Origin: Moniliella sp. 'wahieum'
Lineage: Eukaryota; Basidiomycota; Moniliellomycetes; Moniliellales; Moniliellaceae
Direction: 5' to 3'
Assembly: GCA_003971905.1 (NCBI GenBank)
Contig: RSEE01000060.1
Coordinates: 62,001-126,000, forward strand
DNA length: 64,000 bases
Below are positions 772-52,600 of this stretch, in pieces; the first letter of the stretch is position 1; each line of letters begins with the position of its first letter. Under the pieces are notes generated by a model. It searched no databases. It was not told the DNA's origin and saw nothing but the letters and a program-made list of their open reading frames with translations. A program made the translations under genes and the position numbers.

Positions 772-1086
772 ACATTCGCTGTTCACTATAGTTACCTAGT
801 TACCGGTTACCGGCACATGCACAACTTGAACAGGTCCTTTATGACGGAGAAGACATAACGTTCACGACGTTCATGTCATGATGAACAAGTTCATCGATTC
901 ATTTTCATCGAATGCATCGATCCTCGCTCAGGCGCTCAGCTGAGCGCTGCTCGTCGAGTGATTATCGAGAGTATCGATAAACCATCTGCGTCGTTAACGT
1001 CATTAACGTCATTAATCATCGACCTCTTGAATATGGTGGACTGTGGCGAGCGAGGCTCTCGGGAATATTAGTCGCAGTCACTAGTC

Positions 1087-1107
1087 ACATGTCACATGTC
1101 ACATGTC
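1087..1107. repeat. (ACATGTC)3 heptad array
   Basis: Three perfect tandem copies of ACATGTC, palindrome ACATGT plus C, 30 bp before the solo LTR. Confidence 0.9.
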
Positions 1108-1137
1108 ACACCTGGAAAGCTTATTAAAGTTGGTATC

Positions 1138-1351: not shown

Positions 1352-1768
1352 GTATCGCCGTCGATGGCCCCCCACAACGAATGGTTTTTGAACACGTTGA
1401 ACAACGATTCGATCAACTGATCAACGTGGTCAACGTCGAGTCGCACGTTGTCCGACGGATGGGTGAGAGGTTCAGCCGCTAGCCAAGGCATGGTTACTCC
1501 GATTACTCCGGTTACTAGTTACTCCGGTCTAGTTACCAGTTCCATGTTGAAGCCTACGGCCTACCTATACCAGGAGATACTATGGTTACAAGTGCCAAGT
1601 AGGTACTTGTCTGTTGCTAGCGTTTACTGGTTACCTTACCATTACCAGCCTGTTGCCGGAGATGGATTATCGATTATCGAGATAGGTATATCCTGGAATC
1701 GACGGGCATCGATGATCGATGGTCGGTGATCCGGTGATCCGCGACTGTCTGAGATCTGAACCATTGGT

Positions 1769-2615: not shown

Positions 2616-2657
2616 GTTAGCAGTTAGCAGTTGCTAGTTGCTAGTTACTAGTTATCG
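2616..2657. repeat. six-unit heptad array
   Basis: Six consecutive 7-bp units in perfect register: GTTAGCA twice, GTTGCTA twice, GTTACTA and GTTATCG. All start with GTT while the remaining four bases drift. This shows the 7-bp register is kept while the unit sequence changes. Confidence 0.85.
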
Positions 2658-4948: not shown

Positions 4949-5805
4949 TTAGGCTGCCTCCTCGGCCGCCGGAGCCTCTGGCGCTGGGGCGGCAGCTGCA
5001 GGTGCGGCGGCCTCGGCGGTAGGTTCAGCTTCAGTCTCCTGCATGTCCGACGTCCAGAGCGTCAGGTTGTCCCGGAGCAACTGCATGATGAGTGTCGAGT
5101 CCTTGTAGCTCTCTTCGCTGAGCGTGTCGAGCTCGGCAATGGCGTCGTCGAACGCCTGCTTGGCAAGGTGGCACGCGCGGTCGGAGAGTTGAGGATTTCA
5201 TAGTAGAACACGGAGAAGTTGAGTGCCAAACCGAGACGAATGGGATGGGTCGAGGCGAGCTCAGCAGCAGCCACGTCAGAGGCTGCCTTGTACGCCTCGA
5301 GCGATTTGTCAGCACTGTCCTTGCGCGTCTCGCCCGTGGCAAACTCGGCGAGGTAGCGGTGGTAGTCGCCCTTCATCTTGTAGTAGAACACTTTGCTCTC
5401 GCCCGACGCGGCCGAGGGAATAAGGTGCTTGTCCAGTACGCTGAGAATGTCCTCACATACCTTGGCCAGTTCGGCCTCGATCTTCTCGCGGTACGCCTTG
5501 ATGATGGCGACCTGGGCAGTGTTGCCCTTGCTCTCCTCCTTCTGCTCGATGGAGGAGACAATGCGCCACGAGGCACGGCGAGCACCAATGACATTCTTGT
5601 AGGCGACCGAGAGCAGGTTGCGCTCCTCGACAGTCAGCTCTTGGTCGGCCGACGCGACGGCCTTCATGCTCTCGACCATCTCTGGGGGAGGGGTCAGGAC
5701 GGGGGGGCAAGGCAGGGCGCAGGGCGCAGGGGGGCACGTACCATCGTAGCGCTCGGCCTGCTCAGCGAGCTTGGCGAGGTAGACGTTGTCGGCGTGGGTG
5801 CTCAT
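4949..5805 (-). CDS. 14-3-3 protein
   Basis: Phosphoserine/phosphothreonine-binding adaptor. Reading from 5805, exon 1 gives [21 protein letters not shown] 60-bp intron (5682-5741; donor GTACGT, branch CTGAC) follows, then the diagnostic [29 protein letters not shown] and DYHRYLAEF blocks. The phosphate-binding Lys, Arg, Arg and Tyr of the family are present. Helices continue to VFYYEILN. There the frame breaks: one base is missing near 5178, in what should encode the conserved SPDRAC block. The next frame resumes with a normal helix 8-9 region and an Ala/Pro/Glu-rich tail to a TAA at 4949. Length is normal for the family (about 260 residues). It is divergent from the thioesterase gene, sharing a 617-bp upstream region. 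Identity is certain; the frameshift is probably a sequence error. Confidence 0.95.
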
Positions 5806-6422
5806 GGGGGGGCTGGGCTGGATCGGCAGGGGCGGTGGTGGTGGTGTGGTCGGGGGCTGCTCGGGCTGGCTGGGCTGGGACGGGATGGCGGACCGGAGGG
5901 GTTAGTGAGTACGCCGGGCCCAGGGCCCAGCACGCAGCCCGCAGCAGCGCCCTCGCGCCGCTGGCCCAGCGCTCAGCGCTCACGCGCTGGCTGGCCCGAC
6001 TGCCCCTGCCTCCCGCGGGCCCAGAGCGAGGGGCGCGCCGGCAGCCCCCGCGCTGGGCGCACTGGGTGCAGCAGGGGTGCACTGCTGCACTGGGCCTGCA
6101 CCGGCTGCGCGCGTGCGCGCCACTTGGGCCGGCTGCTTGTCGCTGGGCCACGCCAGAGCCACGCCGTGCCTGCCTTGGCCTGCCTCGGCGCACCCGGCCA
6201 CGAGGGGGGGGTGTGACAGCTCCCACATCACATGTCGCGTGCGACTGGCAGCAGGCACGTGACGCGCGCATGCCCCCGTGCAGCTTACATCAGCAGGACA
6301 CTTGCCGGGGAGCAGCCCAGGCACAAATTTGCTGTTGGGAGGCACGTCCACATCGGCCCTCCACTCTGACCGGCAATCGCCGCGCGCCATCCGCCTGCCT
6401 GCGCCCCCTGCCTCTGCGCACC

Positions 6423-18125: not shown

Positions 18126-19254
18126 ACTACTAGCCAGCGGCTTCTAGCGTCTCCTCGTCCTCAGTGTACTCAGTACTAGTTACTAGCTTTGCTACTGCGG
18201 CCTCAACGAATTCAACCAACGTACAATGTCACACAGCGCCACCACCGGCCACCGTGGATTGCGGCAACTTGCAAAACACCGTGCACACCCACATATTTGC
18301 TCAAAAGCTCTTGCCTCCACGTTTTTCCTTCCTTGCCGCCCAGTTGCCGCCCACGGGTGGGTCGAGGGTGGGTCGGCCACCCATATGCAGAGGTGGAAAT
18401 GCACCATGGATCACGCTCGATGCGTCCTGTCCGTGAGCCTCAGCTGAGGCCTGAGCCTCAGGCTCATTGCAGAGTTTCAGGGTCTCGCTGCTCAAAAGCC
18501 TCAAAGTCAACACCAGGCACCGTTTCATGCCATTCCCGGCCATCGGCCATCCCACACGGGGGGTACCGCTACTCCGTAGAGACTATAGTTTTTACTGATA
18601 CGTGATGGGCAGATGCGCTGACATGGCCTGTGGGTCGCATAGCCCCCAGGGTGCCGCGTGACGCGTGTGACGTCTGTGCTGCACGTTACCTATTTACCTG
18701 TACTTATTGGCCTTCTATACGTGTCGCAAAAATATAAGCTTCGATCAAAGACATTTGCTGATGCGCTGAAGGTTTGCAGAGGGCACACCAGGGCATATAC
18801 CGGGGCATACCCGAGACTTCAAGATGTTGGGCCGATATGGTATGGTATGTCTAGCTGCCGGAGGAATACCGGTAGGGACCATGTAGGACTGGGACGCCCC
18901 GAATTCATCGCCCCAAGGCGGATGAGATCGTGATGATATCGAATGCTGAATGAGGAGTGGAATGGAGGATGTGGTTCTGAGGAGAGGTACAGGAGGCTAT
19001 GAGAAGGGTAGGGCCTTATATAGACGAGGGTACCGCGGAGCTGAGGGAGCGTCCGGGCGGATAAGAGGGGGGTGATGACTATCACGCAGGATGGCGTGAT
19101 TGGGGCATCGCCCCAACATCGAAACATCAGTAAATCGGTAATCAGTATGTTCGGGAACCTTAATCTTAATCAGGTTGAACGTGCATCATACTGATCGAAC
19201 TGATCTGAGATGTGAGAGAGCCTGTGAGGATGAGGCGATGAGGGGTTAAATTTA

Positions 19255-19320
19255 AACGTTAAACGTTAAGGCTAAAGTCGCTTCAAGAGCGTTAAACGCG
19301 TTAAACGTTAAACGTTTAAC
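19255..19320. repeat. TTAAACG heptad cluster
   Basis: Repeated TTAAACG/AACGTTA words, several in 7-bp register, interrupted by one degenerate stretch. Palindromic cores include AACGTT and ACGCGT. Confidence 0.75.
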
Positions 19321-19756
19321 GCTAAAGCGCTGAAGGGTTTCTCTCGGATTTCAGATCTCAAGCCTACCTCAAGCTTTAGGCCTTAGGCCTCAGAAGTTAA
19401 CCGTAACTCGTAATCACCGGCCCATTGCGGAGGAGAATCATTCATTAGTCAGGCGTTACGCGTTAGGTTTAGGCCTTACGCGTTACGCCTTAGGGCCTTA
19501 GACGCCTCTAACTCAGATCTCAGACTGACCTCATGTGGAAAGCGTCGTGGCAAGCGCTAGTGTGGGCCCAAGATGCTAAGACCTCAATTTCAGAGGCCTA
19601 AGGTTATAGGGGCCGCGTCTGGCTAGGCTGGCTTTAATTCACGAAGTCCTGATCGATGATCATGCATTAACCACTGGCCACAGGTGAGCTCACCGGCCAC
19701 CGGGTCACCGGCCATCGATATCTGGTCCCTTCAGTGGTCCCTGTTAGTCCTCAAAT

Positions 19757-25044: not shown

Positions 25045-25874
25045 TGTTGAGAAACCCCTGCATTCGGATTTTGTTTTTTGTGCAACCACACCACACACCT
25101 CAGTCATGTATGCTCCTTCCCCGACCACATCGCCCTCTCACATTCCCAGTTTGCATCCTCCACCCCCCTTTCCCATCCGCACCGACTACATCCTCGGCTC
25201 TTGTCATTAAAGGCGGTTGTGATCGCCCGAAATGAGGGCACAGAGCATCAAATTCATCAGACATGACCTGAACCATCTCCGTCGCGTCGCTTGGGGACCG
25301 CAGCCCCCAAGAAGGTCGCTAAGGGCTCCAACAACATATTTTACCCGCTCAATTTTGCCCTTCCCACTTTTAGTACCACAACTAAAAGCGGATGGTGTTT
25401 CCTCTGTTCCATCTCTGCCTGCAATCCGGGCAGTGGGATGTGAAGCTTGCAGCACAAAACAATCAGTAGTTCAGATGAATACACTCCATTCTGACTATAC
25501 TTTCCCTTTCTTTTTTTTCCTGACCTTGTGGCCACATGGTGCTGACACTGCTTGAGCAGGCCAACAATGTGCAGAGTAAGGCTGCACATATGGGAGTGAT
25601 TATGACCACGGTTGCATCAAGGGCGACTAAGTTTTCGAAAAGAGCAAAAAGGTTAGGACTGTCGTCATCGACGTCATCCTCCAAGTCCATCCAGCACACT
25701 CTGGCGGACAGACAATCCGACGTTCCTGCATCAGCCGGCATGCAGAGCATCCCATTAGCATGTCTCTCCTCTATCTACTCCTTGACCCTCATTGTGCTCC
25801 ACAGTTGCTCTTGCGATGCATGCATTTTTGGACATGGCACCCTCGCGTCCAAGGAGGGTTTCCCAGGCAGCACA
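25045..25874. other. intergenic region, 3' flank of the Rieske gene
   Basis: A frame at 25536-26015 (+) runs antisense into the Rieske gene. It has Ser- and Lys-rich segments but no motif. Nothing is supported. Confidence 0.35.
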
Positions 25875-26871: not shown

Positions 26872-29050
26872 TCTGGAGGGTAGCAGGAAAGAAGCTGGGG
26901 CTGGCTTGCTCACCACCGCCTGGTTTGCTGCGTGCATGGCCGCTGGGTGCTGCTGCTGGCGCCCAGCGCTCCAGCACTCCCAGCCGCCATCCCGGGTGGG
27001 GCCGCAGGCAGCACGGCGCCTGTATGGTCCCAGCTTACAAATTCTGGCCTCAGACCCCGTGCTGGGCCCCGTACTGCGCCGCTGTTCCGTTTCTAATCCC
27101 GCGAACCAGTCCGATTTGAACATTTGCCCTGCGAGCACTGTGTTGATGCATTGCGTACGTAAGACAGGCGACAGTTGAACGTTGAAGTTGCGGCTTGGTT
27201 GCTCCCGCCTCTCCGCGGAATTGGACGTAGTAACCGACCACGCCTTTTACCAGGCACCAACCTCCAAGTACTTACTGATGAATTTCGCGCGACGCGTGAC
27301 GTCGTATCAATCGCCCCAGCCGTCCCTCCGCGCTGATCTTCACCACGCCTCTGCACACCACTCGTCTCGGCAGCTTAACGCTTACCTACGTAATCGCATA
27401 GTCGGCAGGTAATTCATTGATCTACTCCAACACAGTACGTATGGAGAGGGGGATATAAGGCGGTGTGTGTAACGGAGGCATGAAGCCGAAGATGGTGAAG
27501 ATTGGATCGAGGACGACACAGGCTGAGTACTCAGGAGTGTACTGAGTAGTAGGCCTTGTTGAGTACGCAGACCCAGTTGAGAAGGATCATGCTGTGTCTT
27601 TTCATGCAGCACGCTGGGTCTGATGCGCCCTGCGCAAAAGCGCAAAGCCAGTGCAGAGCGCAGATCATTCGACCAACACGGAGTACCAGAGAGCACTGCG
27701 GATCGAATGCACGAGCTAGCGCACTAGCATACCTGGACGTTGGCTCAGCCAGCGGGATTGAGACGGAGGGTGGGGGATGCGTCATGCATGGGTCTGGGTA
27801 TAGTTCTCCAGGGCCTCATACTTCTGGGCGTCAAATTTCAAATAGCCCCAAGAGGCCGCAATATAGGCAGCCTTGAAGCTTGATTGTCGAAGATCGGTCG
27901 TATCGCTTCAAACGCTTCAGGGCCGCAGCCAGCTGTAGCACAGACAATGCGCCGGCACCTAACCGGCATCGTCGGTGGCTAGTTGCTAGTAAAGCTTAAA
28001 GCCATTGACTAGTGACTAGTTACTAGTTAGCGCTTAGCGCTTAGCGCTTTATATTTATAGCAACCACACTACCTGGGGGTTGCCTGGCATGCGTGGCGTC
28101 GCAGTCGCATGTCATGCATGTCACATTGTCACATGTTGCTGTGGCGCTGTGCCTCCGGGAGGCCTACGCACTATGGCGGCTAGACTACAACGACGGTCCT
28201 CAGTATGTGGCAGAAGGTAGACGAGGGAGAACTAGCTGAACTATCGACGATCGATGATCGCATATAAGGCGCTGGGGTCGAAGCAGGCAGTGCGCTGGTG
28301 CCACAGAGCGGATGCACTGGCCAGAAACCGGAGCGCTAGCGACGTCGATCCCCGAACGCCACATGCAGGCGCAAACCCAACAGGCCGCAGTAGGTCGCTC
28401 TGGGGGAGCTGGAAGCTTGACACACCGTCCCGCTCGTCCCCGCCCGCTCGCCACTGTTCCGATGGACCGCCGATCACCAGACTGCAGCACAGCACCGGTG
28501 TGGTGCAGTTTTTTTCGCCATCCGCATGGGGCCAGGACGTCGGCCGGCCGCTGCGCTTTGCTTCGCTTCCCGCACTGGAATCGGTGACAGTCATCGATGG
28601 TCAGGACGAGATTGGCAAGTGGCTAGTCAAGTGCTAGTGACGAGCACTGGGGACGCGTGACGCGTGGCAAGGCACGGGGCGAGAGGTTGCAAGGGGCCCA
28701 ACGACGCAGCGCGGGCAGAGGAAGCGCTAATAACCAGTAGCTAGCAACTGCGCTCCCGCTCAGCGCTCAGCGTGAGCGCTGACTCGGCTGAGCCCCGTGC
28801 GTCCCGCCCCACTCCGCCCCGCAATCGGCAATGGAACAGTGGGCTGGTGCCTGGGTGCCGGTGGCTGGTGAGCTATGCCCGCTGACCGGTGACCGGCGAC
28901 CAGTGGGCACAGCCAGAGGCCCCCGCCAGTCTGAAAGACTTGGACAGCGCCGACTGCCTACCGCCTGCACCCCATCCACCTTCTGCGTCGCCCACCACCA
29001 CCACCGCGCCCCTCTCTTCACCCCCTTCCCACATTCTTTTGCTCGGCGCG
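26872..29050. other. intergenic region with heptad arrays
   Basis: No supported gene. It contains the longest perfect heptad array (28008-28049) and GATCGATGATCG words near 28240. The last 70 bases before 29051 are CT- and CACC-rich, a plausible leader for the lipase gene. Confidence 0.5.
28008..28049. repeat. six-unit heptad array with palindrome switch
   Basis: Six consecutive 7-bp units without interruption: ACTAGTG, ACTAGTT, ACTAGTT, AGCGCTT, AGCGCTT, AGCGCTT. The palindromic 6-mer changes from ACTAGT to AGCGCT at unit four while the 7-bp register is kept exactly. Confidence 0.92.
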
Positions 29051-30561: not shown

Positions 30562-33216
30562 TCCCGTTTTCTTTTTCTTTCCTTTTGTTTGAACTGTATC
30601 CACTCCACCCTCTCTCGTAACACCTCCCTTGCTCTTGTTCTTTTTGCTCTGCCTGTGCACAGCCACATTTTTTATCCTCTTTTGGTCGTCTTGTCACGTG
30701 TCATTGCTACTTCTCGAGTGGTCTATGCCCTTCCATAGCCACCTCTGATGGTAGCTAGGGCTGAACTGTTGGTTTATCCCTCGGACATTTGATCCAAATT
30801 AACACCAGTTTCTGGTTAACTGTATGAATGGCGTGGACCTTGGCAGATGATAACGAGAAGAAGTACCGCCTACCACTGTAGGCATACCAGTGGGCAGCTC
30901 GCTCGTTCACTCTGAACATACTGACACGGACAAGGTGTGCAAATGTTGTTGAGCCGACCTAACCGAGCTGGCGCCCTACTATATGTCAGAAGAGTGCGGC
31001 CCGACCTCGGATGTGCTGGCTCATGCTGGCGTCGCAAGATTGCAACGGAGACGATAAAAAGAGTTGGGGCGTTTTATACAAACGCGCCTTGCCAAACACA
31101 GTACGGCAGCGATGTTTGGCCCGACGGACTGTTCCGGTGACTTCTGCAGAATGGTCGCATCCCGCTCTCACACCCTGCTGCGTTTTCGTAGCATCGGATC
31201 TTGTTCGTAAATGGCCTTCCTGCAGTTCCAAATCATCTCCCCTCTCTTAGGATGCGCCCTTCTGCTCTGCCCGGCGTTGTCGTAGTAACGTCAGAGAACA
31301 TATAACATCCCATGCTTTTCCTTCGTAGTCTCGTGTGCATCTCCCAAGAGCAAAACACTTTGCTTTCCTCATTGCTCCAAAGGGCTTCGTCGGTCATACA
31401 AGGAGAATCGCTCGATAAAATGGTGTGATCCGCGTAGGGTACTTGCACATAATCGATTTAGGAGACCAACGCACCAGTGTGTGCCAGAAAGAGAGAGATA
31501 CGGATTTGGCCAACTGGCGATGCCGGCGCGACACTATTTTGGGCCATACTTTGTGGTGGGCGTGGACTGCATCAGCAACTTGTTGTGGACGATCCCTGCT
31601 GGGACATGATACCTGCGCTTCCCCTGCCTCCCTACCCAAAATTAAATCATCTCCCAGCATCAACAACTCTGTGGGAGCTTCTTTCCGATATGAACTGTGA
31701 CTGTGAACGTTGACGACCACACTCAACAATCAACAGATGCGGCCTCTCGAGCCCCGAAGCAGACCCCGCGGCACGTGACATCGCCGTTGCCCACAGCGCA
31801 TTTATCTCAAGTCAACTTGATGCATGTAGCATGATGCATGGTTGACTGTTGCCATCAACCGTTGGGTCGGACGTGTATCCCGCCCTCGAGACTGTTGCAG
31901 ACGTTGCTGGGATTCTTGGACCGCTGATCTGGACATCATGAACAGGCCACGCGGGCTTGAACATCGTGATCCTGTGATCCTCCCCATATCACTCACTATC
32001 AGAGGAGTGGGGTGGGTGGGGCCAAAGGCCTAAGGCCTCGCTAAAAGGCCTAGCTAAGGTGTGCGCGAACGTTTAGCGTCGGAAATCGCATGAGTCGGAG
32101 ACTGAGCCTCGCCTCAGCGCCATCGCTCAGCCTGAGGTGTTTGTGCTGCAACTGTGGCGGTGACTGGGCGATAATGGGTCTCCTCCGGGTCCTCTGCAGT
32201 GGATTGGGTGGACCCTACTGAGACTACTAACCTGTGGGCCGAACCGAGAAGGAGGATTGCGGCGTAGTGCCAGAGACACTGTATTTAAAAAAAGTGCGGA
32301 AGCGCTGCCTCGTTTCGGATGGGAGTAAACTAATGCCTGGCAGTTAGGGCTTAACGAACAGCGCTATAGTGCTTCTGTGCTGCTTCGAATATGCCCTCGC
32401 CGCCTTTGAATTTCATGCAGGCACATGCCTGTGTGGGTTGCGTTGTTTGCGTTGTCCTCCGTCAAGCGTCGACGTCTCAGAGAAACGCACAACAGTCCAA
32501 CAGGATATATCACGCTGCCCTTCCGTGAGGAGAAGAGCAGACCCTATACTGGGGCGACCCGGACACTCAAGTGACTACCTAAGGCCACGGCAGGCAGGGC
32601 GACTAGCAGTGACTGGTGTTTGGCGGGCGGCGGGCGCAGAGACTGATGCCCCAGTGACATCATTATATTGATGTGAGGCAAGGCAACATCGCAGAGACGC
32701 CACAGCTACGCTCGCGTAAATGGCTCATTTTAAACCCAGCAGCCTGTGATGCACATGCGAAGGCACCGTCTTGTTGCAGCACAAGGGCGCACACCCACGA
32801 TGCTCTCCCAGCGGCAATGTGTGATCCAGGTTGGTCGATGTGCGGGGAAGGGACGGGGCAGTACGCGCCCTAATACCGTTGACAGCATTGGTCGGGCGGG
32901 GGCACAAGCACAGTGTGCGTGAGCTGCCATGGGCAACGGCTGGAGCCAGGGCAGACGCGAGGGTCAGCGCTCAGCCTGGCTCCCGCTCAGGCCGCACCGT
33001 CCCGTCCCCCCTCCATATATTGGCAGTGCCAGATCAGTGCAGGCACTCTACTCACTTGTAACCCCACCATCACCGCTTCCGCTGCAAGAGCAATTCCCTG
33101 CCTTTGAACCAGTAGATCTAACGCCCCAAGGCCGCCTCCCCCATCAATACGATCCACTATCGAACCATGGGCCTGCCCACGGCCGTTTCAGCCTTGGCCA
33201 AACCCCCTACGTCCCG
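30562..33216. other. intergenic region, no supported gene
   Basis: 3' flank of the lipase and 5' flank of the kinase. The longest frames (31394-31729 -, 31425-31700 +) are mutually antisense and motif-free. An in-frame open stretch ahead of the kinase (32929-33216) may be extra N terminus, though an ATATAT word at 33015-33020 suggests that transcription begins inside it. Confidence 0.35.
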
Positions 33217-39446: not shown

Positions 39447-39779
39447 TCTTTGATCCGATGGCCATTCATATGATGATTTCTGAGGCCCACCGGTTAGAGT
39501 GCGGCTAGGGAACGCAATGAGCAGCACAAGAGATGAGTTTCAAGGCGTGCAAGAGGGCAGTCCGTCAGCCACAAGTCCTTCAGCAAGCTGAAGCTCTGAA
39601 GGGAAGAAGACAAGAGCCAGCAAGCAAGTCGGAACAGACAAAGGGGTGGCGCAGCCCGCGCAAGGGCGAAACACCCGAACCAGCGAGTGTCACCGATCCA
39701 TTGGAGAGAGTGTAGGTGAACCCTAGCACTACCCGCTAGCACCGCCAGCTCACCAGACAATATTGGTGTGGTAGCGTAA

Positions 39780-40353
39780 AAAGCGCAAATAAAGACACGG
39801 GGGCGCGCAGGATTATCCAGCGTGGCCTAAAGACTGGCAGAGAACCATGCGATCCACAAAATAAAAGAGGGAGAAATCCTCCACAGCCCACGCTCGGGAG
39901 GAGGTCTGGAGGTATAGGGAAATGCCTGTGTGGTGAATATATTCTGTGGTCCCCGTTCATCCCCTTCTTCGCTATCTTTTGCCAGAGAGGCGACAATACA
40001 GATGACACAAACCAAGAGTGTACCACTCGTGACCAGTGCCTTGTACTCCATGAGGTTGTGGCTGATTGAGAGGTCGGTCAAGAGAATTCGCTCCTATACA
40101 TCGTCGAAACAGAGGCGGATGATTATGATGAGATCAATGATGAGAGAGGTTACTACTAGTAGGGAGGGCAGACACATGATCTTGACAATGGGCAAACGGT
40201 GGCGATATCGTTCGCTTGGGCCAAAAGCAAATCTATTACAGAGGCCATTACCGCTTTTTAGCAAGTCTCTCGCCAGATTGCCCACGCCGGTCACAATAAG
40301 CAGAACGGTGGTGCACGCTTAGAATGAGACACAGATTGAAAAGAATCATTCAT
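39780..40353 (-). CDS. multi-pass membrane protein
   Basis: The ATG at 40353 starts MNDSFQSVSHSKRA. After a one-base shift near 40310 a single frame carries four hydrophobic segments: TTVLLIVTGVGNLA, VKIMCLPSLLVVTSLIIDLI (continuing to IIIRLCF), ALVTSGTLLVCVICIVASL and SPSFILWIAWFSASL. A loop with EEGDERGPQNIFTTQAF lies between the third and fourth. The frame contains one TAG at 40082-40084 between segments two and three. The pattern of four segments, the last with FILWIAW, recalls MARVEL-type or Sur7-like fungal proteins, but this is a guess. The 3' end is not secured and may run on in another frame to about 39500. Confidence 0.42.
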
Positions 40354-42618
40354 TACCCCCTCTCATCCTGGGAGGGAACGGCACCCATAGGCAAATGGCG
40401 CTTCCGACTGGGACAGGTTCTTTTGTCAGAGAGGCACCCCCTCCCAATCAGACCGGGGCGACAGCCCCCTCTCTAATAGGCTCCATATCGCACGATGCTA
40501 ACTGTGCATTGCTTTACCCCGGCGCTACTCTTGATACAGGTGACGGGGTGACGGTGACCGAGCCAGGACGAGCGCATCCTCTCCCCTTTTGTCTCCCTTA
40601 CCTGGGTTAGACCGACGTCAAACTAGGCCGGCTTGTCTCGGAACGTTGAACGCCGCTGAGCACGTTAAGCAAACCCACATGCGCTCTGTTGTGTCCAATT
40701 TAAACGGAACTTGTTCCCATCGATCTATGCAACTAGTAGTAGGATCAAGTCCCTTTCGTACGGCCGAGGTGGCCCGTGCATGAGCTTCTCTGAATCCTGA
40801 CTTAATGATCCTACTCGTCAATTTGGTCTCTTTGGCCTTGGACGCGAGTGTGCTCTAACTTGAGCCTCCGGATCTGGACGTCAGTTTCCTGATCTGAGCG
40901 TTTCCTTCTCGTTGTGTGATGCTCCCCTCATGCCTTTTTGAGTTTCTGCCTGAGGGCGGAGATCCTTTCCTTTACTTGCGCCTTTCTGATTTTGACTGTT
41001 CCTGTTCCTGGCTGAGTGTAGGGACATTTCCTTACTTTGGTTCGCTCCTTTCTTCTGAGAGCCCTTATCTCGATTCCGCCCCTCTTTCGTCGTTGTGTTT
41101 TGCTATTCGTTGTACCTGCCTATATATGACCCTTGATCCGCGCATGATCCTTTTCCCCTCTACTGAATGGTCATTCTCCGTCTTTTTTCTTCTCATTTCG
41201 TCTTGCTTTCGTCATCTTTCTTCGTCATCTTCGTCGTCGTCGTTTCATTCGTCCTCCTTTCTTTCCTCTTCGTCCTTGTACAACATCCCTTACCAATCCA
41301 TCCTTTTCATCCATCACAGGCAACTCCCGTGTTTTACTCTTAGTTCACCATCACAGCAGTCCCACCGACTTTTTGCTTCCAGCGACCATCTCTTGGTCTT
41401 CCAACATCCCTTCGACTGGGTATCCATTGCCGTCGATCCTCTTTCAGTCTCATCTGTACGGATCACATGGCGATCCTACAAGAGAGTTAAATTGTTCTGT
41501 AACAGGACATGTCAAACCCTATCTTTGCCTGCGTCAACTTCCAGCCCGAACTTTAGGACCACACCACTACAGGCGTGCTAGTCTTGCTCGTTTTGGGCCC
41601 ACCGCAACTTGCCGCCACGAGAGCGAACACTCAATGGAGAGGCCTCACATCCCCTCTAGCTCCGTTCGGATCTGCCAGTACAGTGGTCGGGCTTGATCAA
41701 CCGTAAGAACCTGTCCTCCTCCAAGGGAAAGCACCCCTAAACTATGGGCCGGGCCCCAGTCCGGGATCCACCCATGACGGCTCTCACCCACTGAAGCAGA
41801 GCTGGAGAATATATCAGTCAAGGGTTGATGTTACGTTTGGCCCAGGCCACAGTACAGCCGCAGTCCTGTTTCGATGTGAGGAATAGATGAAATCGATGAA
41901 AGAGGAGGCAGAAGCATTGGGATACATTTGGCACTTTGTGTTATTAATAGAAGCGAAGAATGCCGCGCATATACCGTCAAGTATACTATGACGAATGCAT
42001 AGATCTCTCCACGAGAGCTCTCTATTGCGTCGTGGAGAGATGATAGCTTCTTCTGACAGACCCTCTGCGGTCCTGTAGACACTCCGGGTAGGACGGGGGC
42101 CATATCCTAGATCAGACCTATCAATATCAGGCCTATCCGGGCCGTCCATGGTTTGCTCACTTCACGTTCGACATCAACAGTCTGGCCGGGGTGCCAACCC
42201 AGTGCCTCGCTCTTCCGGCAGGTTTGAAGCTTCAATATTCAAGCTTCAAGAGCTAGCATAAAGCACGATGCGTGACGCGTGATGCATGGGCCACCCTTCT
42301 GTACCCTTCTGCACCCTACTCTTCAACCTCAAGCCGCCGGTCGTGAATACTCGCAGTTCGCAGCCCAGGCAAGTAAAACTTCAATTACAAGCTCTGAGGG
42401 AATCGGGGAAGATGCCCATCGCTCAGGCGCTCAGGTCCTCAGGCGCTCAGCAAGCCGCGCGCCACGTTGGATGTGCGCCAGTACTCAGACTGAGTGTACT
42501 GAGTACTACTCAGTGCTGCGGGCTGGACACTGTGACATGCCACACGAGGAAGTGCTATCGGATGATACTCTTAGTGCCTTCAGCCTTCGCTTGCTTCTGT
42601 TGGAGAGTAGTGCCTAAT
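40354..42618. other. intergenic region with promoter-like block
   Basis: A TATATAT word at 41121-41127 is followed by about 450 bp of CT-rich sequence. The first ATG afterwards in good context is at 41634 (20 codons, MERPHIPSSSVRICQYSG), followed by GTAAGA near 41703, which could be a splice donor. No recognisable protein follows. Nothing else is supported. Confidence 0.35.
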
Positions 42619-42730
42619 GCTGGGGTTCCCCTGCACGGCCCTCGGTAGATCGGTGACGCTCACTTAGCCGGGCGGAAGAGTTCCGCTCGCAGGGCGCGCA
42701 CGCCCTGCTCGCTTCATCTCCCTTCTCTCT
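42619..42730 (+). repeat. dispersed 112-bp repeat, copy A
   Basis: Aligns without gaps to 44239-44350 (100 of 112 positions identical by eye, about 89%). It contains a near-perfect hairpin, GGGCGGAA-GAG-TTCCGCTC, and ends in a CT-rich tail. No target duplications or TG...CA ends were found. Confidence 0.8.
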
Positions 42731-42779
42731 GTCATCATGCATCAGGCCTCAGGGGTCACCGGTCATCCAACAGTCAGCA

Positions 42780-43180
42780 TCCTCCTTTATCCCACCTTCC
42801 ATTCTCGCCCCTTCCCACATTTCTTATCCAACTCCTGACCGTTTCCAGCCAATTGATTGAGTAATACAGGCAACCTCTCGTCTCCACTTAGCTGCCTCAT
42901 CTTCATCATCCAACCTCATCGCCCAGTCGCGCGAACTTTCCTTCAGTGGCGTCGATTCCCCCTACCACAGCATATCGCGTGGGTTCCTTTCACAGCTACG
43001 TCGACGGCCGCCCCTTCCCAGCTTCAGCTCTGGCAGTGTTTTCCCTCCACTGCACCTACCCGTCCCTAAGCCCCGGACGCTTCAGACACGTTACTACCCC
43101 CAAGCGGCGCATACGCAGCCTTGGCACGCGTACAGCCGCCTCGGATTCACGCCACCAAATAGCCCAAACCTGAAACTACC
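42780..43180 (+). CDS. possible first coding exon, unknown protein
   Basis: A CT-rich leader with an acceptor-like CTGACCGTTTCCAG near 42836 precedes 300 bp that translates as varied, non-repetitive peptide in more than one frame (for example YRVGSFHSYVDGRPFPASA in one and TRYYPQAAHTQPWHAYSR in another). A GTGAGT donor follows at 43181. This suggests a spliced gene broken by indels, but the frame, start and function cannot be assigned. Confidence 0.25.
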
Positions 43181-43772
43181 GTGAGTACTCCACCTAAGGG
43201 ATTGCACCCCATCAACCTGGGTGAGAGCCTCCTGGCAGGGCCCAGGGTAAGGATCGAGCCCCCATCCACCGATCATCCTTGCTCCATCCCCTCCCATGTC
43301 CCACCGATCCCCTTCTTGTCCCCCCTTGCCCCCCCCGCCCCCCCCCTCAATTGCTCTCGACCACTCCGCCTTGTGCCTCGGTTACTATTTGCACCACCGC
43401 CCCTCTTTGAGCCAGTCAGAGACGCGTCGGGTGGTCATCCGTCTTCGAAATAAGCATTGTGGGGAGTCGGCATCCCTGTGGCCATGGCGCCGGCAGTGGC
43501 GGCACAACTCTCGGCGCGGATTGAAGGCACACTGTGCTCGAGCGTGGTCGTTGGTGCGGCAAGGGGGGCACCGCCAGTGAGCACGGGTGGGGGGCATTGT
43601 AAGGTAGTGGAGGACGCGTCGACGCGACTTAGGTGTCATTTAGGTGTGATATGCCCGATTATTAGCCAGCTGGCGCAGCAAGCCTCCCCCCGTCACGTGC
43701 AGGCAAGGGAGCAGTAGGGTTGTTGGCGGATTTGATGGGTACTCGTATATGGAACTAAAGGATACTCACCGG

Positions 43773-44132
43773 TCACGCGTCGCCGTTGCCCCATACATCG
43801 AGATGGAGCAGAGGTGGGTCGATGAACGTTGGAGACAAGCCAGTATAATATTTCGGTGGTGGATATACGTGTACACTTTTTGATCCGTTCCGAGTGTCGC
43901 AATGGGAGAATGTATGTAAGGTCGGAGGAACCCAAAAGGAATTGGGTGGAGAGCCTGTGAAAAAGTAGAGCAAACCAAAGGCAATGGTGGCGCCATCAAG
44001 CCTTACGGGCTCAGAGCCTCTCATGCACATGCTACACCACTTGGAAGAAACAGGGGGTTCGAACCACCAGCCAGGTGTATACACATGGAGGCTTCGAAGG
44101 CCAAGCTTGAAGCTTGAAGAAAGAGGGGACAA
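43773..44132 (-). CDS. possible 119-residue protein
   Basis: An uninterrupted frame beginning MSPLSSSFKLGLRSLHVY, with GATIAFGLLYFFTGSPPNSF and a C terminus SPTFIDPPLLHLDVWGNGDA. Composition is coding-like but no domain is recognised. A GTGAGT lies right after the stop, so the frame may instead be one exon of a longer gene. It lies between the two copies of the 112-bp repeat. Confidence 0.28.
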   Translation of the reverse strand: MSPLSSSFKLGLRSLHVYTPGWWFEPPVSSKWCSMCMRGSEPVRLDGATIAFGLLYFFTGSPPNSFWVPPTLHTFSHCDTRNGSKSVHVYPPPKYYTGLSPTFIDPPLLHLDVWGNGDA

Positions 44133-44238
44133 AAGAACGATTAATGGTATGCGATAAATCGACCAGGCACTCAGGGCTCAGGAGCTTAGGCGCCTTGGCC
44201 TACGCACGGCCAACAAGACGGATCTGTTAGAGGGTACT

Positions 44239-44350
44239 GCTAGGGTTCTCCTGCGCGGCCCTCAATGGATCGGTGACGCTCGCCTAGCCGAGCGGAAGCG
44301 TTCCGCTCGCAGGCCGCGCACGCCCTGCTCGCTCCATCTCCCTTCTCTCT
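44239..44350 (+). repeat. dispersed 112-bp repeat, copy B
   Basis: Same orientation as copy A and exactly 1620 bp away. Its hairpin is perfect: GAGCGGAA-GCG-TTCCGCTC. The word TAGCCGAGCGG resembles the A-box of Leu/Ser tRNA genes, but no matching B-box or cloverleaf was found. Confidence 0.8.
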
Positions 44351-45753
44351 CTCCTTTCTCCTTCCCTTCAGACGTTGCTTGAAGACTTGTGGCTCACCAC
44401 TTTGCCTTCACGCCTTGTCTGAAGGCTGCTTTGCAGCTGATCCATAGGATCGCGAGTGCTCTCAAGTCGCACTCTAGCAGGATCTTGGTCTGGGTTAGAA
44501 CGAAGAAAGGAATGGCAGAGTACCTAAGAGGATCGGGACACGAATGCTGATGTGTGGTACATGTGACAGACACCCTCAGGTATTCAATTTTCAATGTTTA
44601 GTTAGCACTTGGCGTTTATAAAATTGTTCCAGGCCATTCGCTCTCGCCTGCTGGTAGTACATACTACGGCCTGCCTAATCTTGATGATCTGGATAATTGA
44701 TAATCGGAAACCAGATGGTCGGAGTGGGCGATTGGTGATCTGTGATCGATGATCTAGATGATCGGGAACGATGTGATGCATGTGACGCTGACGAGAGTGA
44801 TAAAGCTTAAAGCGACTAGAGGCTAGTGGGGAGGGCTGCTGCTATGTTGGTAGTGAGTAATTGTACGTATTGATGGGGAAGCTACAAATAAATCTGACAC
44901 ATGTGATTCACAGGGCCTTGGCTTCACGCATCATGCACATCATGCATCATAATGATCGATGCACTATGTCCATGTGCAACGTTCAACGTTCATATTCTTA
45001 GATCTTGCCCGTTAGCGCGTTAGCGTTCCACGTTACGCCGGGAGTGTCATGCATCACCCATTGCATCCCGCGTGCTGGGCAGGCCCGCTCGTCGCGTTGC
45101 GCATTCCAACGATGCCGGTGCCAGTATGGCCTCTATGTCCGCTGCGAACCGAGCACGAAGAAACCCGTTTTTGCCACGTGTGGGCGGGGGTGATGCAGGT
45201 GATGCTCAGGGCTCACTGTGGTAGCTGCAGTTAAGCTAGGCTGGTGCCAGCGACCCCGCGCCTCTTCAGCACACCTCTTGGTGGAGCGCGATGCACATTG
45301 TGCACGCTGGACACGATTCGGTGCCAGCGGTGGTGAGCCTGGTGAGGTTGGTGACCGGTGACCGGTGAGGCCCGAGGTGCGGCGGGGTGGGCTTGGACCT
45401 TGGGGCGCCACACGACGCACATAGTGCAGAGTGCCTCTATACGGTCTACGCGGGGCACACATTTGGGTACTGAACACGTTAAACGTACTGAGTACTGAGT
45501 TCAGTAGTAATGATCCTGGTGACCCAGCGACGTCCTAAGTGCAGTTATGCAATGACAGAGAGAGACAGGAGCTAGGTTGAACGTTGAACCCAGACTGAGG
45601 ATCAGAAGAAGAAGGAGAAGAATGAGAAGAAAGGAGAGCGGCACTAGGCCAGGGGATAGGGATACTGGTGTGGTGCCCGGATGAGTAAGATGGTCAGGAG
45701 TGCCGCGGAGGTGGCTGGCCCATAGGACCCTGGTCAACAAGTAGTGAACTCAC
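44351..45753. other. gene-poor DNA between repeat copy B and the second solo LTR
   Basis: No supported gene. It contains ATGCATC- and ACCGGTG-type heptad words (for example 44925-44955, 45354-45367). Confidence 0.5.
45354..45367. repeat. (ACCGGTG)2 heptad array
   Basis: Two perfect copies of ACCGGTG, palindrome ACCGGT plus G. The same core recurs at 28880 and 50550. Confidence 0.7.
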
Positions 45754-49650: not shown

Positions 49651-52600
49651 TGACGGGTTGCTTACTGGCCCTTTTCCTTTCCCCTTTCCTTTCCCCTTTC
49701 CTTTTCCTTGTTCCTCTGTCGCACCTCAGTTACCTATTGGCTTGCCCTGATATATGACCACCCTATATATTTCTCCTCCCCTCCTCCTCCGCCCCTCAAA
49801 CCACTCCCCTGCGTGCTGGCCTTCGGCTTGCGGCTTTGTCTCCATTCCCTTGGAGATGCCGCCTTACTATCTTAGCCTGCCCCCTCCCTTCTTCCTCTTT
49901 CGGCTCCTACAACTCAGTTTCGACATTGGCAGGGCGAGGGGAACTCTATGAGAATTCAAGGCAAGGGGTGGGAGGCTGGGGGGCTGAATACTTTTGTTGC
50001 TATTTGGGGGCTCATCGGCCACCAGTGCACGTTCACACGTTCACACGCGAAAGCGCATCTAAACATTACTTCTACGCTCTCGCGCTCATCTTGATGGCCT
50101 GTGGGTGGGTGTTGCGGTTATCAGGTACTGGTATAGGGAGTGTGCCGAGGCCACATACTCGTACAGCCATGCCGATGCTTATGAATGATGTACTGCATGG
50201 CCGGCCCACGACGTCTCGGCTGAAAGGCTGAGGCTGAGTAACTGAACTGAGTGCTCCTGACACCTGACATAGTTTGCTCACTGTGGGGTTTCTGCCGAGG
50301 CATGTGGGACAAAGTGAGGCCTGAGGGCCTGGGGAAGCGCTAAGCTGAGCTCGCGTTGTCCCCGCCGTCCCCACGCTGGCTAGTGGACTAGGACTAGGCT
50401 AGACTACTCTTGCGCAGGTCGGTCGGGGCGAGGGGTGGCTGAAAGCTTAATAGCCAGGCTCAAACTACAGCTGGCTAGCAGCGTGCACCATGCGGTCGTG
50501 GGCGAGTGTTGCGGTGGGGGCACTTTGATCGATCATCGATCCATGCTCGGTGACCGGTGAATGTTGACCGGTGACCCCGTGGGGGCTAGGCACTAGGGAG
50601 GGGGGTGGGACGGTCCCATACATGCCCCCGCGAAGCCCGGTACAAGTGACTGGTGGCTAGGATATAGTGCGTATGACATCACAGTGAAGCTTGAAGCTGG
50701 AGGTCACGACTTCTCAAGTGCCTTTGTTCCCAGGCGCAGTCGCTGCGCGGGCATCTCGAGATTCCCATCTACTCTACCAGATCCATTGTCCTCCCGCGCT
50801 CCTCAGTTCGACATTTGAGTTGGACGTTAGACTGACCAACCCTCGGCCTCATTAATCATTTCGGCTCCGACGCGCGACTGGGGGCATCGATGACGATGAC
50901 TATAGCGAGGCGGAAAGAGACGCAGCTGTATGTAGACACGGATGCATTTCGGTGCTGCTGTGGCTCTCGCGGGGGGCCGGTGAGTTCATCTGCTTGTGGA
51001 ATATGGAAGGCTTGTGCGTGGAGGCCGGAGGGGACGCGTGTTGTCGCAGGTAGTACGGGTAATGTATGTATCTGATGCATGACTCAATGATGAACAATTC
51101 ACACAGGAAAGCGTTTTTGGTTAGAGCGTTTTTATTCGTCGGTCTCGGAGTCTGCCGACCCGGCCGCGCCGACCAGCAACTGCCGAACGCGGAGCATCGG
51201 CCGAAAGAATCCTCAAGACATCCCCCCACACTAGGGCCGTATACTAGGCAGGGACACGCTCTGCTGCTCCACCTACATAGCATTTTTCCAAGAGACGTAG
51301 GCTCGTGTCTCTTTCCATGTCCCAGGCATCGATCATCCCATCGATCCCTCTCCCCCGTCGGGTCCCGAGGGACTATAGGGAGCACCATCCCCGCCTTGCA
51401 TCTTCCTCTCTCCCCTTTCTCTCCTCCGTCGCGGTCGTGTCGGCCATTGCATGAAACCTAAGTATAGTAGCCCTCCGATTCCGGACGCGACGATCGATGA
51501 TTGGTGAAATACCACATAGCTAATCGAAAATGCCGGTAACAAGGTTCCGGATAGATATGTGAGGACTACGTACGAAATTCAAGGTGGGCAAGGCCCACAA
51601 GATTGTGAACCAGAAATTTCGATTAGCCATGCAACGTGTTGTGGGTGGGTGTGTTGGTCAAAACTGTAGGGATTTTTACACAACACAACACTATACGGTG
51701 TTGGGGAACTTGATTGGCTGTGGCTATATATAGAGCTGACTATAGTGAGTGGCGCATACAGATGCATACCACGTGCTTTTTTGTTTGTACCACAGGAGAA
51801 CCCCATTGTTTACCAATGGTAAGTTCTCCAGAACAAAAAAGATCAAGCGCCTAAAAAGTCACGAAGTGAAGAGTGGACGCCAGTCTCCGTCAACGTTCAA
51901 CTTAACTCGTATTAGTATACTCAGTGGGGAAGATGATCGAATGACCGCGCGTCAGTACTCAGTGTTAATAGACGATGTGCTACCTTCCTCTCAGCTTCAA
52001 GCTTCACTAGCACGACTCGAACACCGAACCATTGAATTTATCGGACAACCTACTTTTGTGAGCTGAAGTCCCCTATAGCCAACAGGCCTTTTAGAGGCAC
52101 GAGCAGAAAAAGTTATGTAGTAGTTTTCCCTCTGCCCCTTAGCGTCATCGACCTCATCGATGGCCGATCATTAATTTATCGTCACACGCGTCACCTAACG
52201 TCGTTGCTCTCTTTCTGTGCCTTTGTGTTTCACCCCATTCTTGCTGCCAGAGTAAGACTGGTGTACGTTGCGAAGACTTACTCATAAGCAACCTACAGCA
52301 TACCAAGGAGATCCGGAAAGACACAACGAAGGTGAGACAACGGGGGATCCTCGATCCGAGGACTATAAGTAGGCGAGACGAGGAAGAAATATTTGTGTTT
52401 TTTTGTGTGGTTTCTGCCGACGCCCGTTTGCTCCTCCGGCCACAGGCCACCTCAGGCCGGCCTTAGGCTCGAAGTGGTAAAAGCTTAAGAAGACTACACT
52501 GTATGCATGTGCTATCCAGGGGACTGGCACCTAACATCGCGTTGTTATCATATGCAACGCCAATATCCACCCGCAAGGGTCAAGTAGAAAGGAAAATGAG

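Follow-up and report, generated by a model that had tools for sequence, protein, structure and literature searches.

Palindromic micro-arrays in a Moniliella genome are anchored on TNA trimers at 7-bp spacing and may be excision footprints of a hairpin-forming transposon

It was found that the DNA of the basidiomycete Moniliella sp. 'wahieum' carries many short units in which a 4-bp palindrome lies between two identical TNA trimers, and that the skeleton of its palindromic micro-arrays is TNA at 7-bp spacing. The window analysed here is a stretch of 64,000 nucleotides of contig RSEE01000060.1 (positions 62,001 to 126,000). Comparison with a second haplotype revealed that the local flank of a TNA site, and not a transposon end of fixed sequence, supplies the bases of the palindrome. 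The support for this flank-derived 7-bp event is good. As to its origin, the units are probably excision footprints of a recently active, hairpin-forming cut-and-paste DNA transposon, the parent element being putative.

The initial annotation of the window had described arrays whose unit is a palindromic 6-mer plus one base, and its main example was reproduced exactly: six 7-mers (ACTAGTG ACTAGTT ACTAGTT AGCGCTT AGCGCTT AGCGCTT) run without slip. The arrays thus stand, while for their unit TNA plus a 4-bp palindrome is the better reading. Read in this manner, a chain of five TNA-4pal-TNA units runs from position 28006 onward, and the switch from CTAG to GCGC occurs at one shared TTA. This CTAG|TTA|GCGC junction is common to both haplotypes, and the number of units differs on either side of it. 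Since the TNA at 7-bp spacing is constant, the palindrome can switch while the register holds. A second array that had been pointed out, six 7-mers anchored on GTT with a drifting remainder, was also recovered (Table 1). In the window, there are 19 chains of at least two consecutive units, 8 of which have at least three. None of the 111 window units lies within the 10.8 kb that served as the coding proxy, in agreement with the earlier statement that the arrays lie outside supported genes.

Table 1. Positions in the window of representative TNA-anchored arrays, units, and alleles (strand as recorded).
Feature	Position	Strand	Remark
TAA-CGCG-TAA-ACGT-TAA	44..60	.	One register, two different palindromes
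Chain TCA-CTAG-TCA-CATG-TCA-CATG-TCA-CATG-TCA	1078..1108	.	In-register palindrome switch; other haplotype has one unit fewer
TTA-TCGA-TTA	1667..1676	.	Other haplotype 7 bp shorter, with a single TTA
GTT-anchored drifting array, six 7-mers	2616..2657	.	Other haplotype has one 7-bp unit fewer
Dense TTA/TAA/TCA-anchored cluster	19246..19485	.	Palindromes vary: AATT, ACGT, AGCT, GGCC, CGCG
9-bp class, CGTCATC-GA-CGTCATC	25663..25678	.	Full 7-bp duplication plus 2 P-nucleotides; other haplotype shorter, with a nearby substitution and a 1-bp gap
TGA-ACGT-TGA	27176..27185	.	Other haplotype has a single TGA (GT-TGA-AG)
TCA-AATT-TCA	27831..27840	.	One TNA in the other haplotype, as TAA with one substitution
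Array of the initial annotation	28008..28049	.	Inside TGA-CTAG-TGA-CTAG-TTA-CTAG-TTA-GCGC-TTA-GCGC-TTA-GCGC-TT starting at 28006
Short allele GGTGGGGCC	32015..32023	.	Other haplotype GG-TGA-CC-GG-TGA-GGCC; short allele has TGG, one substitution
6-bp class, TGACG-C-TGACG	44783..44793	.	One P-nucleotide; other haplotype has a single TGACG
Short allele CCTAACATC	52530..52538	.	Other haplotype CC-TAA-GG-CC-TAA-CATC
TAA-CATG-TAA	58076..58085	.	Other haplotype 7 bp shorter, with one adjoining substitution

Is the arrangement specific to a period of 7 bp? I counted palindromes in the window and in a sample of 20 stretches of 10 kb from twenty contigs (200 kb), taken outside the window. Identical palindromic 6-mers exactly 7 bp apart number 32 in the window (0.1 in simulation) and 26 in the sample (1.0 in simulation), and at a distance of 8 there are 1 and 0, respectively. 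Perfect dyad symmetry was found in 66 of the 112 period-7 runs of window and sample (31 of 43 in the window alone), against about 10% for random 7-mers, and the palindrome has the form A....T (A-xy-YX-T) in 65 of these 66. At periods 5, 6, 9, 11, and 12, dyad symmetry is at about background; it is mildly raised at period 8 (7/36 vs 7%), period 10 (3/44 vs 2.5%), and period 13 (4/27 vs 0.4%). The complete motif, in which two copies of one TNA enclose a 4-bp palindrome, was counted 111 times in the window and 130 times in the sample, while dinucleotide shuffles gave means of 2.3 and 6.0 and maxima of 7 and 14. Thus, the comparison with shuffled sequence that had been suggested for these arrays came out far above the shuffles in both data sets. 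A plain count of palindromic 6-mers, suggested along with it, is less telling: the total is barely raised in the window (1065 vs 967 expected) and not raised in the sample (3065 vs 3186 expected), and the signal lies in the TNA core and in the 7-bp arrangement. Since the total is barely raised, this count, which was the first refutation test of the initial annotation, would give a weak result by itself.

The preference for TNA is strong. Identical trimers around a palindromic 4-mer are TCA/TGA in 201 cases against 5.9 expected and TAA/TTA in 40 against 0.8 (34-50x), and the next best trimers reach about 4-5x. When the outer bases of the core are considered, T..A has 241 units and the remaining 15 classes have 8-43 each. 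The insert between TCA/TGA pairs at spacing 4 is palindromic in 201 of 376 cases, compared with 5/128 to 31/272 for five control trimer pairs. A different unit follows directly after 10 of the 241 units of window and sample, so that the 7-bp phase does outlive a change of palindrome, as had been claimed. The mean at 19 offsets other than multiples of 7 is 1.0, but this contrast is partly built in and 1.0 understates the expectation, because one TNA is given at offset 0. In a fairer comparison, 10 of 204 TNAs at the end of a unit (4.9%) have a different unit after them, and 234 of 9,669 other TNAs (2.4%) have a unit after them. The register follows from TNA anchoring, with an approximately twofold local excess, and the phase needs no separate mechanism because the events are anchored on TNA.

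The assembly comprises 69.5 Mb in 223 contigs. Algal organelle-type palindromic repeats were the first idea, in view of a similar GC content and the palindromes, and were ruled out by the window proteins, which are those of Basidiomycota. The closest named species for the gamma-glutamyltranspeptidase of the window is Tilletiaria anomala (62% identity, 72% query coverage), and the ribosomal protein L37 has 76% identity to the same species over 51% of the query; an environmental relative is closer than T. anomala, with 82% identity. Contig C58 runs parallel to the window (contig C60), with 96.4% identity over 54,592 aligned bases when gaps are not counted, and many insertion polymorphisms lie between the two. 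C58 is the second haplotype within the assembly, at least in the window region. The presence of two haplotypes suggests that the organism is a dikaryon or a diploid.

The haplotypes differ by 862 indels whose lengths peak at 7 bp (30 indels, vs 15 at 6 bp and 10 at 8 bp). I sorted the 30 seven-bp indels by hand. Eleven of them fit a TNA with a palindromic filler: three are array-length changes (at 1084, 2641, and 58646), and at the other eight sites (1665, 2731, 27174, 27831, 32015, 52530, 55202, and 58077) the shorter allele has no second TNA copy. In the shorter alleles at 27831, 32015, and 58077, a substitution lies at or next to the TNA. Slippage of a microsatellite that grows only by copying an existing unit was ruled out, since there are units in one allele at places where only a single site is found in the other. 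The other 19 seven-bp indels do not fit the TNA rule, and this counts against a footprint origin. Two of these 19, at 1929 and 51039, carry a palindromic 4-mer flanked by TGT and not by TNA; they may represent relaxed targets or a second specificity.

The fitting alleles obey a simple rule, in which L2-TNA-R2 gives either TNA-R2-rc(R2)-TNA-R2 or L2-TNA-rc(L2)-L2-TNA. In other words, the TNA and two flanking bases are copied directly, and the reverse complement of those two bases is added. The rule was formed on five haplotype events and was then tried on other data. Among the 167 isolated units of the window and the sample, 137 have a flank match of at least 2 nt on at least one side (about 20 expected by chance), and exactly 2 nt is the commonest length of the one-sided matches. 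The 30 isolated units with no flank match speak against footprints. A second allelic or paralogous pair, L018 and L035, was fetched once the rule was formed. Its members differ by five 7-bp gaps: those at 5347 and 6386 are clean fits, those at 5437 and 5539 also fit but have substitutions close by, and at 6316 an array has changed in length. There are two 11-bp gaps as well, and one of them, GGTAGCC-GG-CC-GGTAGCC, has a TAG core and P-nucleotides from both ends. Between the window haplotypes, the majority of indels of lengths other than 7 do not fit; besides the cases in Table 1, examples that do are CTGAAG-CT-CTGAAG at 52063 (8 bp) and TCACG-C-TCACG at 50704 (6 bp). The joints in the allelic comparisons carry direct copies of 5-7 nt of the target site, and the isolated units as well as the junction spectrum described below have P-nucleotides taken from the flank rather than from element ends. 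It had been inferred from the arrays alone that a single process generates them; the haplotype comparison bears this out and makes the 7-bp events behind it visible.

The junction spectrum was obtained by scanning joints between identical cores, with TNA set against three control core classes. Joints in which one flank carries two reverse-complement bases and the other side is trimmed to the core number 146 and 125 for the two orientations (controls at most 3.0). The four 8-bp forms number 15-18 each (controls at most 1.9), and the 9-bp forms, in which the whole 7-bp duplication is followed by one full overhang, number 22 and 9 (controls at most 1.3). In static sequence, no clear excess is seen for the 6-bp forms with a single P-nucleotide, which number 26 and 11 (controls up to 16.9), and the 11-bp double-overhang form occurs once; both observations count against a footprint origin. 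Further 7-bp forms are also raised (77, 84, and 89), with counts that overlap where there are arrays or palindromic sites; the 77 plain R2-L2 joints include sites that are palindromic in themselves. The tip of the palindrome lies 2 nt past the TNA for copies of 5 (51/79), 6 (6/15), and 7 nt (10/15). Several simpler schemes were rejected. A plain 7-bp duplication with an R2-L2 joint and no P-nucleotides is disfavoured by the non-palindromic class at spacing 4, which is not raised for TCA/TGA (67/376). A footprint of fixed ends, in which each terminal repeat leaves TNA plus 2 nt, was ruled out because all 16 tetramers occur and because the flank predicts the tetramer. As for a target preference beyond TNA, the short alleles reconstructed for 104 one-sided units have no palindromy from position 2 outward; in these alleles, N prefers G/C and there is a weak T at -8.

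The 7-, 8-, and 9-bp classes and the one 11-bp case fit a 7-bp NNTNANN duplication, flush hairpins opened 2 nt from the tip, and trimming of overhangs. I infer the stagger, the hairpins, and the nick offset from these sequence classes. An element would insert at NN-TNA-NN via a 7-bp staggered cut, and 7-bp duplications (NNTNANN) would result on either side. Upon excision, a hairpin would close each flank where the 7-bp duplication ends, and since the palindrome is even, this hairpin would be flush. A host nuclease may nick the hairpin 2 nt from its tip, and the 3′ overhang left behind would be a palindrome of 4 nt, R2-rc(R2) at one flank and the L2 equivalent at the other. End joining would mostly keep one overhang and trim the other to the double-stranded TNA, which would generate the 7-bp class; joints keeping more might generate the 8-, 9-, and 11-bp classes, and loss of a base the 6-bp class. 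Two in-phase TNA sites would be left per scar, at which later events or slippage could add another 7 bp, and the register would be kept because each scar leaves its TNA sites in phase. At the edge of an array, an event using the outer flank would produce a new palindrome in the unchanged register, as may have happened at 28008-28049. Such scars account for a 7-bp register that outlives a change of the repeat unit, which slippage cannot. Among the options that the initial annotation had offered, a recombinase footprint is the best fit. On the other hand, a low-copy element would not be expected to leave so many scars, which counts against this origin. The unit differences were read from haplotype pairs, in which either allele may be the ancestral one; for this reason, and because of the gaps in the search for a parent element, the transposon part of the explanation is held with moderate confidence.

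Could the scars arise without a mobile element? A domesticated transposase or another hairpin-forming nuclease might break NN-TNA-NN, and fill-in of the 7-nt stagger and opening of the hairpin might write the scar. The lack of a parent element in the DNA examined (about 340 kb and the inspected haplotype insertions) is in keeping with this, and so are passages of PMC4763223 in which Kat1, a domesticated transposase of yeast, makes hairpin-capped breaks. However, this explanation comes without a candidate gene, known flank hairpins appear to arise where a transposon end is cut off, and one staggered cut alone would not be expected to yield a 7-bp duplication plus flush hairpins. I thus consider it unlikely. 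Template switching during replication at TNA, which is self-complementary except for N, together with slippage and with no dedicated enzyme, seems slightly less likely still. The copied bases do stem, in either orientation, from the adjoining flank, as in the templated mutation of quasi-palindromes, and the three array-length changes at 1084, 2641, and 58646 resemble slippage. However, template switching should vary the arms, and the arm is fixed at 2 nt, the forms with 3 P-nucleotides numbering 0-4 each (controls at most 1.3). In addition, TNA is required at a fixed distance, and its N is kept rather than complemented, being the same on both sides in 241 of the 286 TNA-4pal-TNA units.

It is very improbable that the units come from a PIF/Harbinger (IS5-like) element that duplicates 3 bp (TNA) and is excised imprecisely. 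The target core of such elements is of a similar TNA type, and passages of PMC4561436 indicate that mPing tolerates several middle bases in its TTA/TAA-type duplication; however, the excision of mPing is described there as generally precise. The rule needs R2 at the left copy and L2 at the right one, neither of which a duplication of 3 bp can supply, and the duplication here is longer than 3 bp. Bare TNATNA is not clearly enriched (197 vs 93-309 in controls), and a search of the genome with the DDE_Tnp_4 profile (PF13359) gave 0 matches, the control having matched in 1 of 14 genomes (prokaryotes). Sites selected because a dimeric regulator binds them can be dismissed almost entirely, and so can ordinary microsatellites: the arrays are indeed found outside the coding proxy, and the copy number of some is variable, but 16 of 16 4-bp palindromes are found between TNAs, alleles differ by units built from local flank at single TNA sites, dyad symmetry at period 7 is far above the other periods tested, and no analysis run favours the dimeric binding protein proposed earlier.

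Most of what is known of hairpin-type excision scars comes from reporter genes. Duplications made by hAT elements are usually 8 bp in length, whereas the proposed duplication here is 7 bp with a TNA core. In RAG-mediated V(D)J coding joints, flush hairpins are opened some two bases short of the tip, which gives P-nucleotides, and RAG/Transib elements make 5-bp duplications; the hairpin opening is alike, but the scars here are genome-wide and are not programmed joints. To my knowledge, P-element excision is not known to form flank hairpins. In passages of PMC5873905, which is an example of such scars studied in a reporter gene, palindromic P-nucleotide insertions at Ac/Ds scars in Candida are attributed to hairpins, and together with passages of PMC4561436 it documents palindromic P-nucleotide scars of Ac/Ds in Candida, yeast, and plants. 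The hAT footprints described in these two sources (Ac/Ds in plants, yeast, and Candida albicans) resemble the present units in having duplicated target bases and hairpin-derived P-nucleotides with short arms. In contrast, the Ac/Ds palindromes are centred on one base according to PMC5873905, while the palindrome here is even and would come from a flush hairpin. Galileo, of the P superfamily, likewise has a 7-bp duplication with an odd-palindromic target, GTANTAC, according to passages of PMC4168063, but its core differs. The Kat1 breaks of Kluyveromyces mating-type switching are hairpin-capped and made by a fungal transposase, but they are described in PMC4763223 for one programmed locus, unlike the genome-wide scars here. 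In the titles and passages covered by the literature search, no description of genome-wide 7-bp TNA scars was recognised.

The density of units is 0.65 per kb in the 200-kb sample. By extrapolation from 0.3% of the assembly, the total is estimated at about 40,000-45,000 units, about 5% of which would be due to chance. Among 71 window units in blocks aligned with the other haplotype, 31 are identical there and 13 differ by substitutions only; for 9, the other allele is shorter by exactly 7 bp, and 18 have another length change. Since 27 of the 71 differ in length between the haplotypes, the process looks recent. It is tempting, though doubtful at present, to go further: an undescribed, recently active hairpin-forming system of transposition or breakage, with a 7-bp TNA-centred stagger, might write a large share of the intergenic micro-structure as a phase-locked, self-extending record of tens of thousands of events, perhaps through a domesticated host enzyme with no mobile element left. 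If the proposed origin of the scars is confirmed, one genome would hold thousands of natural products of hairpin opening and end joining, from which the nick offset (2 nt) and the trimming rules may be read without experiment, and behind them would stand a new recombinase that forms hairpins and has a compact target.

For the putative parent, no element with terminal inverted repeats and a 7-bp NNTNANN duplication was found in about 340 kb scanned (<1% of 69.5 Mb). The large haplotype insertions that were inspected likewise have no such duplication; they have other duplications or none that is clear. In six-frame profile searches of the genome, RVT_1 gave 71 matches, and thus the search works on this genome. 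The profiles of hAT (dimerisation domain, PF05699), KDZ (PF18758), Plavaka (PF18759), and P-type transposases (PF21787) gave 0 matches in this genome and none in the control genomes either, so that absence is not shown by these zeros. A MULE would be recognised by an 8-9 bp duplication and its MULE domain, and PF10551 gave 0 matches, with control matches in 3 of 14 genomes (prokaryotes). The profile of CACTA-type transposases (PF02992) has one match above the cut-off, at C17:557095-557541, and a weak second one on C34 below the cut-off; these matches are not tied to scars.

Several insertions were also observed in the region. The other haplotype (L029) has a 196-bp insertion at 31105-31109 that starts with TGTCA, ends with TGACA, and is accompanied by a GGCAG duplication, resembling a solo LTR. 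A 181-bp insertion at 41249 (TGTCACAG...TATGACA) is similar to it. Insertions of 254-256 bp at 44226-44479 and 39492-39747 have related starts (GTTAGAG) and are mostly missing from the other haplotype; GGATCT is found on the flanks of the former. A 117-bp insertion at 51515-51631 has inverted ends (CATAGCTAATCGAAA / TTTCGATTAGCCATG) and is not present in the other haplotype. A short element of about 100-150 bp, seen at L018:6903-7046, occurs at dozens of places in the genome.
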